Positions 13,483-16,971 of a stretch of 64,000 nucleotides of DNA are shown here, piece after piece. How positions within the stretch are numbered: the first letter of the stretch is position 1; every line of letters begins with the position of its first letter. The DNA comes from Bacillota bacterium (lineage in GTDB: Bacteria > Bacillota > DTU025 > MWDF01), in assembly GCA_029565935.1 (NCBI GenBank), contig JAKQNF010000015.1, positions 1-64,000 on the forward strand. The letters run 5' to 3'. A program made the position numbers and the translations under genes. Under the pieces are notes generated by a model. The model was given only the letters and a program-made list of their open reading frames with translations, was not told where the DNA came from and searched no databases.

Positions 13483-15219
13483 ATGCCGGTCTTGTTGCCA
13501 GCGGACATAGGGGCTGACAGGTTCTGCAGTCAGGGGGAGAGGGATGTATTCGAATATCTGAGACGCTCATCGGTAAACGGATACGTGATCCATTCGCTTG
13601 GTTTCGATATGAGGAAGCAGCACGAGATCGACTATGTCGTCATCTGCGAAAGGGGCATCCTTTGTCTCGAGGTCAAGGGCGGGGGCGTAGAGCGAAAGGA
13701 CAACGAGTGGTTCTACGTAGATCACGAAGGCAGAAGGCATTTCGGGGGAGCCGGTCCCTATCGACAGGCGCTGGACAACATGTATGCGCTGAGGGAGCGG
13801 TTCAGGGGACATTTCAGATCCGGCGACATCTCACATACCCAGTTCTCTTACGGCGTAGTGTTCCCGGATGCGCCGCTTAGTTTCAAGGGCATCGACGTCG
13901 TGCGCGACCTTACGTTCGACAAGACAAGAAGCCTTGACGATTTCGACAAGTTCATCAAGGATTGCTATGACTATTCGGAAGAGCAGTGCAAGAACCTAAA
14001 TGGTGTTGCCGGAACGAGGCTCACGTACAGGAAGGATATGGAGGTCGTCAAAGATTACCTCGTAGGTGACTTCGGTTACATACCGGATCTGAACGACCAG
14101 CTGGACGGTATAGAAAGACGGCTGAACGAAATGACGCAGGAGCAGTATGCTCTCCTCCGCTCGCTTCAGAGAAATAGGCGGTTGTTAGTGTCAGGAGGTG
14201 CTGGCACCGGCAAGACCATGATCGCGATAGAGCACGCCAAGAGGCTATCCGACCAGGGCAACAAGGTCCTCTTCCTGAGCTATAACAAACTGATAAAGAA
14301 CTACCTTGCCCGAACGCGGGCCATGGAAAACGTACACTACGATAACTTCGACAATTTCCTATACCAAGCAGTGCATGGAGAAGACGGCTACAAGGCGCCG
14401 GAAGTTGAGTTGTCCGATTTCTTCGCAAAGCAGCTTCCCGACGAATTCATCAGACAGGATGGAATCGTTGAGGAAGATAGGTTCGATTGCCTGATCATCG
14501 ACGAAGCACAGGACATACTTTGCGATACCAGGCTGCTATGCCTCGACCTTTTAGTCAAGGGGGGCCTGGGAAAAGGGAGGATAGCGATCTTCTACGACGC
14601 GATGCAGAACATCTTCAACCCCGGCATGTCTCGGGTCCTGGATGATGCGGTAGATTCCCTGGCGGAAAGCTATGGCTTCGTAAGCTTCGAGCTTACCAAG
14701 AACTGCAGGAGCACAAGGAGGATCGTCGATTTCCTAAATTCCGCTTCAGGCATTTCCGTAGTCACCGACAGTGAAGTCGACGGGTTGCCCATCACGATAA
14801 AGCCTTATGGGACGAACACAGAGCAGCGCGCCTTGCTTGTGGAGATAATCAAATACTTGATCAGCGAGAAAGTGCCTCTAGAGGACGTGGTCGTCATATC
14901 CCATATGGGCGAGAACAACCCGAAGGGCTGCTTCAATGACCTAAGTTCTCTTAAGGGCGTATGTTCGTACGGGTTCTTGGATTCTGATCGCAGCTATGAG
15001 AAAGTACCAGGTACCGTCCAGTTCACGACGATCCAGCGGTTCAAGGGCCTTGAGGCGAAGGTCGTGATAGTCGCCGACGTGTACAAGCTGAGCGGCGAAG
15101 ACATGCAACCTCAAATGAGGAACTATACTGCATTCTCCCGGGCCAAGACGCATCTGTACGTGCTAGCGCATAGCGGCATTAAAAACGAGCTGTCAAAGAT
15201 AGCGAGGGCTATAAGGTGA
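13483..15219 (+). CDS. NERD-domain SF1 (UvrD-like) helicase
   Basis: 578 aa. The N-terminal NERD nuclease-related domain (about 15-120) contains QGERD, E48-x-D50 and LEVKGG (E63, K65), matching a D-(E/Q)xK nuclease core. The helicase part has Walker A GGAGTGKT (about 238-245), Walker B LIIDEAQD (about 338), a motif-IV-like KNCRSTRR, QRFKGLEA and a motif-VI-like FSRAKTHLYV. This is a complete single-chain nuclease-helicase. Such proteins are found as solitary accessory or defence genes; the substrate is unknown. AAGGGGG precedes the ATG. It is flanked by unrelated genes on both sides and appears monocistronic. Confidence 0.88.
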   Translation: MPVLLPADIGADRFCSQGERDVFEYLRRSSVNGYVIHSLGFDMRKQHEIDYVVICERGILCLEVKGGGVERKDNEWFYVDHEGRRHFGGAGPYRQALDNMYALRERFRGHFRSGDISHTQFSYGVVFPDAPLSFKGIDVVRDLTFDKTRSLDDFDKFIKDCYDYSEEQCKNLNGVAGTRLTYRKDMEVVKDYLVGDFGYIPDLNDQLDGIERRLNEMTQEQYALLRSLQRNRRLLVSGGAGTGKTMIAIEHAKRLSDQGNKVLFLSYNKLIKNYLARTRAMENVHYDNFDNFLYQAVHGEDGYKAPEVELSDFFAKQLPDEFIRQDGIVEEDRFDCLIIDEAQDILCDTRLLCLDLLVKGGLGKGRIAIFYDAMQNIFNPGMSRVLDDAVDSLAESYGFVSFELTKNCRSTRRIVDFLNSASGISVVTDSEVDGLPITIKPYGTNTEQRALLVEIIKYLISEKVPLEDVVVISHMGENNPKGCFNDLSSLKGVCSYGFLDSDRSYEKVPGTVQFTTIQRFKGLEAKVVIVADVYKLSGEDMQPQMRNYTAFSRAKTHLYVLAHSGIKNELSKIARAIR

Positions 15220-15370: not shown

Positions 15371-16444
15371 ATGCGCAAACAAGTATATGTAATCGCTTTG
15401 CTGACGCTAATTCTGTCATTGTGCTTTATGTCCGCATCCGCTGCCGGCGCCGACTGGGCGTTACGAGTCGACGGCGCAAAGACCCCTGTCCTTTTACCTG
15501 ACGGCGGTATCGCAGTGATATCGGGCAGCAAGGTCGTCGCTGTAAACGCGGATGGGAACACGAAATGGAGCTGGGACGCTGGCGGACAGGTCAAATTCTT
15601 GGCGACCGATGATGCCGGAAATCTCTATGCCGCGCTTAATAAAACCGTCTTCAAAGTATCCGGCGCAGGTAAGATGATATGGAAGACCGATGCGTTCGGG
15701 GAAGTATACTCGTTCGCCTTCGTCGAAGGCAAGCTACTGGTCGGATGGGCCAACGGCCTATTCGAGCTCGATGATAAAGGGAAGCTTCTTTGGGAATACT
15801 ATATGCCGGAGGACTGCTGATTCCCCACGATAGTGGGACCGGTCTGGTCCCTGAGCTACATGGGTAACGGAAAGTGCATACTAGTGGGGAAAGTATTCTT
15901 TGACGTCACCAATCCCAATCCCGTCGACGGCTATGATTACATCAACATGTTCAACATCAGTGACGGCAATACCGTAGCCCAGTTCAAGGCGGTAGAGCCT
16001 TTCACCATAAGGTTGATAAAACCCGTGAGCCAGACGAAAGCGCTAATATCTGCCGATTACTCTGGCCTGGTCAGCTGGAACACGGTCGACAAGTACCTTT
16101 ATGAGTGGAGGCTCAAGGTGGATCCTCCGAAATACGTTTGTGTCGGCCAATCGAACCAGGCCCTGATAGTAGGCAAGGACGGCAAGGGTATATCTACGGT
16201 CGACATAAAGAAAGGCACCCAGCTAAAGCAATCATCATATACTGAAACGGTCTTGGGAGAACCTATTTTCATCGGTTCGCGGTACTATGTCCCGGTCAAT
16301 GGCGGGCTGATGGTGCTTGGAACTAATCTAGAGACGGTGTCGCGGTATAACCTGAGTGGACTGAAAGGTTCTGTATCCCTGCTGCCGGCAAAGGACTCGA
16401 TATACATCGTGGGTGACAATCTACTTGCTAGATACGGTATCTGA
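15371..16444 (+). CDS. Predicted secreted selenoprotein with PQQ-like beta-propeller repeats (in-frame UGA = Sec150)
   Basis: 357 codons if the single in-frame TGA at 15818-15820 is read through. The N-terminal signal peptide (about 1-27, ending ASAAGA) predicts export. The rest is a run of short beta-rich repeats of the PQQ-like propeller kind, each pairing a Gly-Asp-Gly or Gly-Lys turn with a strand, for example LPDGGIAVISGSKVVAVNAD and DDAGNLYAALNKTVFKVSG. The repeat pattern continues unchanged after the TGA, so both halves are one protein. Codon 149 is Cys and codon 150 is TGA, giving PEDC-U-FPT, a vicinal Cys-Sec pair. A SECIS-like hairpin follows at once. A terminator lies after the final stop. 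Role: probably extracytoplasmic redox chemistry (inference). The alternative is a nonsense-mutated gene or a sequencing error. Confidence 0.78.
15818..15851 (+). promoter_or_regulatory. UGA (Sec) codon and bacterial SECIS-like element
   Basis: TGA at 15818-15820 is followed by a minimal hairpin at 15835-15851: GGGACC, loop GGTCT, GGTCCC. That is a perfect 6-bp stem with a 5-nt loop, and the loop begins 20 nt after the TGA. E. coli fdhF mRNA has the same GGUCU apical sequence 18 nt after its UGA, which SelB recognises. A second short stem, CCCAC-GATA-GTGGG (15824-15837), overlaps its base and could compete or stack. Confidence 0.75.
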
Positions 16445-16505: not shown

Positions 16506-16671
16506 GGCACAACGACATCCTACGAGATCTATCCAGAGATGCATCATAACTTAATGTATGTGGATTCAGCTGCTCCTTTTCCTTCATCCATCGGCCTACG
16601 TGTTGCTGGAAATATATAAGTGCTGTATAAATAGTAATAGAATAGTCCATTTTAGCATTCGAGGTGCACAA

Positions 16672-16971
16672 TTGGACGAAGATATAATGCGTGGCTATTT
16701 CTATGAGCTAGTTGTCATTCAAGAGAAGGCAATGATTGAAGCACTATCCACTTTCCCTCTCGACGGAACCGTAAAAGGCCTGATATTATCGGCAAAAGCC
16801 TGGGAAAGGAATGTCACCAGGCTTGAAGCTCAATTCATGAAGAAGAACGATCTTACACTGAAGGACCTGGCAAGGATAAAGGTGATCGGCGAGCTTTTCA
16901 ACTGGCCAACACCTGATAGCGAGTTATCCGAAGCTTGTCCTGCGATTAAGGATTCTTACGTCCAGCTTTAA
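16672..16971 (+). CDS. Small hypothetical protein, 99 aa
   Basis: Mostly helical, charged, cytosolic; contains ALSTFPLDGTVKGLILSAKA and ends with an acidic then Cys-containing tail. I do not recognise a family. A TTG start at 16672 is chosen because GAGGTG lies 5 nt upstream; the in-frame ATG at 16558 has no ribosome binding site, and the ATG at 16687 is too far from one. It is monocistronic and convergent with the FucI-like gene. Confidence 0.55.
   Translation: MDEDIMRGYFYELVVIQEKAMIEALSTFPLDGTVKGLILSAKAWERNVTRLEAQFMKKNDLTLKDLARIKVIGELFNWPTPDSELSEACPAIKDSYVQL

Follow-up and report, generated by a model that had tools for sequence, protein, structure and literature searches.

An in-frame UGA and a compact SECIS-type hairpin suggest a new family of selenocysteine-containing propeller proteins in Bacillota

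A propeller gene interrupted by UGA

We analysed a stretch of 64,000 nucleotides (hereafter the window) from the genome of a Bacillota bacterium (assembly GCA_029565935.1, contig JAKQNF010000015.1), focusing on a gene whose reading frame is interrupted by a UGA codon with an RNA hairpin just downstream. The genome, here called G000, is 1.80 Mb in size and 98% complete, and the window was located on its contig 8. The open reading frame (ORF) begins with ATG at 15371, and its first part (15371-15820) is closed by TGA at 15818-15820. Past this TGA the frame stays open as far as a second TGA ending at 16444, giving 358 codons with only one internal stop. Translated with TGA as selenocysteine (Sec, U), the gene yields a read-through product of 357 residues with Sec as residue 150; standard gene calling would break it into pieces of 149 and 203 amino acids. 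The features of the locus are as follows.

15371-16444, + strand: ORF of the Sec gene, coding for a predicted eight-bladed PQQ/BamB-like propeller that is probably exported (translation with TGA as U; Pfam PQQ_2; AlphaFold2 model; TGA in one alignment column in 10/10 copies)
15371-15445, + strand: predicted N-terminal signal peptide with a hydrophobic helix and the residues SASAA (judged by eye to be of the signal peptidase I type; the model has a helix at 2-18)
15815-15820, + strand: codons TGC TGA of the Cys149-Sec150 pair, as placed by the alignment (C-x-x-U at the matching site of paralogues)
15818-15820, + strand: in-frame UGA, very probably read as Sec
15835-15851, + strand: probable SECIS hairpin with a perfect 6-bp stem and a 5-nt loop (GGGACC 15835-15840, GGTCT 15841-15845, GGTCCC 15846-15851)
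15821-16441, + strand: part of the propeller after the UGA, blades 4 to 8, under purifying selection (ratio of nonsynonymous to synonymous substitution rates, dN/dS, 0.07 against the orthologue in a second genome, G001; 0.06 beyond the hairpin)

A preliminary description of this DNA had proposed that the hairpin is a selenocysteine insertion sequence (SECIS). The coordinates that it gave for the UGA, the stem GGGACC/GGTCCC and the loop GGTCT were confirmed. From the UGA to the start of the loop there are 20 nt, close to the 18 nt that had been quoted for fdhF, and the E. coli K-12 fdhF sequence indeed carries the same GGTCT at 18 nt. Chance occurrence of such a spacing and loop had been judged low. 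Of the 1928 TGAs that the two strands of the window contain, one, TGA 15818, fits a strict pattern: a spacing of 18 to 22 nt and a 5-nt loop, G in its first two positions, closed by a perfectly paired stem of 6 bp or more. On stems of that length, GGTCT occurs as a loop a single time in the window. A looser pattern (stem of 6 bp or more, loop of 3 to 9 nt, spacing of 16 to 37 nt) is shared by 2.6% of the window's TGAs. Against a low chance stand the six pairs that arise in 5% of synonymous recodings of the window gene taken alone, and a z-score of only -1.29, which is unremarkable, for the minimum free energy (MFE) of this single hairpin. An Rfam search of the window gave no matches. Considered in a single gene, the hairpin is thus suggestive but not decisive; the case for Sec is carried by the homologues.

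Conserved UGA, constrained hairpin and Sec machinery

A search with the read-through protein against 149 relatives brought the family to ten loci in four genomes from two families of one order, that is, the window gene plus nine full-length homologues with 18-77% identity to the window protein. G000 holds four paralogues, two other species of the genus hold three and two, and a member of another family of the order holds one. Each copy has exactly one internal stop, which is TGA in 10/10, always in the same alignment column; the terminal stops of the ten genes are mixed (6 TGA, 2 TAA, 2 TAG). The Cys column beside the TGA is equally invariant (10/10), forming C-x-x-U in seven copies; in the three orthologues of copy 1, a 2-residue gap brings Cys and Sec next to each other (C-U). 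Downstream of the TGA, dN/dS is 0.06-0.13 in three ortholog pairs and in each pair lies below the value for the part before the TGA.

Cys-bearing homologues, which are usual though not universal for selenoproteins, were found neither with the full profile nor with one of the motif region in 398 genomes of the phylum, to which these searches were confined; nor did 12 genomes of the class contain a Cys form. Scanning genome contigs for a DNA pattern of CxxU plus hairpin returned three true loci, two in Firmicutes bacterium ADurb.Bin153 and one in Bacillota bacterium Go_SlDig_bin_374. Four other matches (L045, L046, L049 and L050, from Cyanobium, Halieaceae, Polaromonas and Bacillus horikoshii) had no homology to the family and were taken as chance, and none of the ten matches of this pattern in viral contigs was homologous to it.

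The distribution of the TGA speaks to the possibility of a decaying propeller gene, in which the stop would be a nonsense mutation or a sequencing error and the hairpin would have arisen by coincidence from the codons for GPVWS. One in twenty recodings of the window gene alone does give six pairs, and the G-x-V-x-S found at the blade starts of generic PQQ propellers makes a GG.CC...GG.CC hairpin easy to obtain. Decay is nevertheless refuted already by the conservation of the TGA in 10/10 copies: it occupies the same column in ten genes from four independently assembled genomes. In addition, dN/dS after the TGA is about 0.1, and pairing in the stem lies far above synonymous expectation, leaving decay with a practically negligible probability.

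Alternatively, the gene might encode two proteins, with translation stopping at the UGA and re-initiating just 3′ of it to give a split propeller, and with the hairpin serving as a translational-coupling or attenuation element. The window gene does have a GTG five codons past the UGA, and its orthologue an ATG. Among the copies, however, the in-frame starts after the UGA vary, falling at codon 1, 3, 5, 8, 21 or 30, and this lack of conservation argues against re-initiation. So do the TGA in 10/10 copies whose terminal stops differ, a frame that is never shifted, the invariant Cys next to the UGA, needless for a plain stop, and the full Sec machinery in the genome. We therefore consider a split propeller very unlikely.

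Conservation of the hairpin in homologues that carry the TGA had been named in the preliminary description as a check on its proposal. We found the hairpin in 10/10 copies, with a spacing of 20 nt throughout and 58 of 60 stem cells paired (96.7%). In a published model of the bacterial SECIS (bSECIS; PMC13188914, Fig. 2A), the apical loop measures 3-9 nt, the upper stem 4-16 bp and the spacing between UGA and loop 16-37 nt, a G falls within loop positions 1 and 2, frequently with G or U next, and the MFE is at most -7.5 kcal/mol. With stems of 5-6 bp and 5-nt loops, all ten copies lie within the limits on loop, upper stem and spacing, and all ten loops begin with either GG or xGU, in line with the rule on G. 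The minimal elements of nine of the ten reach -7.5 kcal/mol or below (-8.2 to -10.5), including that of the window, at -10.3 kcal/mol for its minimal 17 nt. The loop sequences themselves differ: GGUCU, GGUCC, GGUCA and CGUGA occur in two copies each, GGUAC and UGUAU in one each. Only the G-U at loop positions 2-3 is kept family-wide, and this same G-U opens an invariant Val codon. The equation of the loop with the SelB-contacting GGUCU of fdhF therefore stands for the window gene, where the two are identical, but not for the family; since GGUCU is not conserved, the match is partly luck.

Selection on the pairing is visible at synonymous sites. When all copies were resampled synonymously by local codon usage, the mean was 40.8 pairs and the maximum 53, compared to 58 observed (0/20,000 resamplings); with one representative for each of the five subfamilies, P was ∼0.0002. 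Likewise, among 333 seven-codon segments scored for synonymous conservation (mean 0.59, standard deviation 1.63), the top one (z 6.2) sits on GPVWSLS, that is, on the hairpin. At the TCC/TTC codon, which pairs through its third base with the codon for Gly, 27/27 counted pairs were identical, with 6.4 expected. A covariance model of the element, run on 12 genomes, recovered the ten copies it had been trained on and, beyond them, three weak matches (E 0.3-0.7); it revealed no further selenoprotein class.

Contig 31 of G000 carries a tRNA-Sec (77.9 bits, UCA anticodon), selB (364 bits, over cut-off, covering positions 2-580 of 581, with wing_2 and wing_3 SelB domains), selA, assigned by inspection and located directly 5′ of selB, and selD, which has an in-frame TGA at L069:8791-8793. 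All four family-bearing genomes possess tRNA-Sec, SelB and SelD, and in 4/4 the in-frame TGA of SelD lies at its known Sec site with a compact hairpin after it (L069 in G000; L109-L112); this hairpin reads GGGUCC-GGC-GGACCU in three genomes. Because SelD has its TGA at this site, UGA is almost certainly in use as Sec in these genomes for a textbook selenoprotein. Automated annotation would place the start of SelD 3′ of its Sec. Formate dehydrogenase, sought as a second control selenoprotein, had no match in the four genomes.

As the preliminary description had suggested, we compared the window hairpin with a SECIS of the same genome, and that of SelD proved equally compact and GC-rich, with 6 bp. 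The lack of the bulged U of fdhF, earlier taken as a pointer to the SelB of this lineage, is ordinary, since the published bSECIS model does not demand it and the SelD element is likewise compact.

These findings also bear on whether a near-cognate tRNA might place Trp or Cys at the UGA, with no selenium involved. TGG is one base away from TGA, and UGA read-through in bacteria can be leaky. In the genome of the window, though, UGA serves as a normal terminal stop, and no homologue has a Trp or Cys codon at the site, while the CxxU/CU context, the hairpin at fixed spacing and the complete Sec system favour Sec. Near-cognate decoding is accordingly highly improbable.

We thus interpret 15818-15851 as a UGA-Sec codon followed by a bacterial-type SECIS in the gene of a new selenoprotein family, with a probability of roughly 0.94; judging from sequence, the hairpin very probably functions as a signal for decoding the UGA as Sec. 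Besides the unremarkable folding energy of the window hairpin, several points weigh against this interpretation. The family is small, with ten copies in four genomes, all four of which are apparently draft metagenome-assembled genomes. The minimal stem of copy 3 in G000 reaches only -4.8 kcal/mol, above the -7.5 limit (-13.1 with flanks). A second peak of synonymous constraint (z 5.2), with no known cause, lies near window positions 15695-15715, ∼41 codons before the TGA. Finally, classical covariation is nearly absent, with one both-sided change that shuffles match in 99/500, because the stem also codes for an invariant Gly-Pro-Val; given this weakness, we dropped covariation as an argument and used synonymous constraint in its place.

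In the mechanism we favour, SelB with GTP and Sec-tRNA-Sec would bind the compact hairpin, its loop 20 nt downstream, when a ribosome reaches the UGA. The SelB complex would bring Sec into the A site, allowing all 357 residues to be made and not just a fragment of 149. This protein would be exported and would fold as an eight-bladed PQQ/BamB-like propeller whose Cys-Sec pair, C-U in the window protein and C-x-x-U in paralogues, sits on the loop that joins blades 3 and 4.

The predicted protein and its genomic surroundings

The window protein matches Pfam PQQ_2 (PF13360) with 35.7 bits (gathering cut-off 27.6; E 9.5e-9), and 10/10 members match this family at E ≤1. AlphaFold2, run on the ten-row alignment, returned a model with a mean predicted local distance difference test (pLDDT) score of 86.6 and a predicted template modelling (pTM) score of 0.82; counted by eye from its strands, the model appears to have eight blades following the signal helix. 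Among solved structures, the best matches come from designed PQQ-type propellers, BamB and Bacillus YxaL. The N-terminal signal suggests that the product is probably exported.

In the model, the Cys-Sec pair falls in loop 144-153, which joins the final strand of blade 3 to the opening strand of blade 4. GPVxS, encoded by the hairpin, begins blade 4 and is typical of blade starts in such propellers; the SECIS thus appears to have been accommodated within a motif of the structural repeat. The most likely role of the Cys-Sec pair would be that of a reversible redox couple of the selenenylsulfide type, the alternative being a soft-metal site; either would lie on the propeller face outside the cytoplasmic membrane. 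As a broader picture, it appears likely, if less firmly so than Sec insertion itself, that an undescribed, Sec-only family of exported propellers has four paralogues in a 1.8-Mb Bacillota genome and makes its SECIS from the G-P-V-x-S codons of a blade start. That homology-based selenoprotein finders miss this family would then follow from its lack of Cys forms.

The neighbours of the paralogues differ from copy to copy. Directly upstream of copy 4, a small lipoprotein without a Pfam match is encoded in 3/3 species (L067:10188-10832(-), L066:10174-10818(-), L065:7798-8592(+)), and a divergent relative with 23% identity to the L066 copy lies near tRNA-Sec (L069:6361-7059). A C69-family peptidase gene directly follows the selenopropeller gene in the genome G003 (L068:94-1941(-)), and a homologue of this peptidase lies ∼5 kb from copy 2 in G000 (L062:482-2245). 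In the window, a gene combining a NERD nuclease with a UvrD/Schlafen-type helicase (13483-15219, + strand) is located upstream of the Sec gene, an order shared with G001 (82% identity). An ORF without a Pfam match (16558-16971, + strand) has an orthologue in G001 (L060:15558-15872, 63%), which suggests that its true start lies further in.

Relation to known selenoproteins and propellers

We found no earlier description of the family in the open-access literature, though one may exist elsewhere. The 2026 catalogue of prokaryotic selenoproteins (PMC13188914) and its 2022 counterpart name no propeller or PQQ family, the paper on deep-Sep (PMC12013277) reports no propeller selenoprotein, and no selenoprotein model in NCBIfam release 20 matches any of the ten members. 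The family would thus add the eight-bladed PQQ-like propeller, a fold absent from the 2026 catalogue, to the selenoproteins, in a lineage where one small genome holds four copies. Deep-Sep, a current finder, may by its own stated limit miss families without Cys homologues (PMC12013277), and a family without detectable Cys homologues falls into precisely this blind spot. In addition, ten compact SECIS elements with differing loops form a natural series for asking which loop bases SelB needs and, if our reading is true, a protein repeat and a recoding signal would share one sequence.

In its redox-type motif with Sec, the family resembles GrdA, HdrA, SelW-like, SaoC and other catalogued CxxU/CU families, from which it differs in being a predicted propeller, a fold named for none of them (PMC13188914, Table 1). 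Its predicted fold, blade motif and probable export are those of BamB and YxaL-type propellers (PF13360 PQQ_2), but the window protein scores just 22 bits against the BamB equivalog cut-off of 285 (TIGR03300), and we know of no report of a CU/CxxU insertion between blades 3 and 4 in BamB or YxaL-type propellers. At the RNA level, SelD of the same genomes likewise combines an in-frame UGA with a compact hairpin after it, whose stem is GC-rich and 6 bp long and whose first loop positions are G; in G000, however, its spacing is ∼17 nt and its loop the 3-nt GGC, and it belongs to a known family (TIGR00476). E. coli fdhF, encoding formate dehydrogenase H, offers a similar coding-region hairpin just past the UGA, with an apical GGUCU at 18 nt compared to 20 nt in the window gene. 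At 6 bp, the window stem is shorter than that of fdhF and has no bulged U, the family retains only the G-U of the loop, and the protein is unrelated. The mechanism of insertion appears to be ordinary for bacteria, and the protein family that uses it appears to be new.
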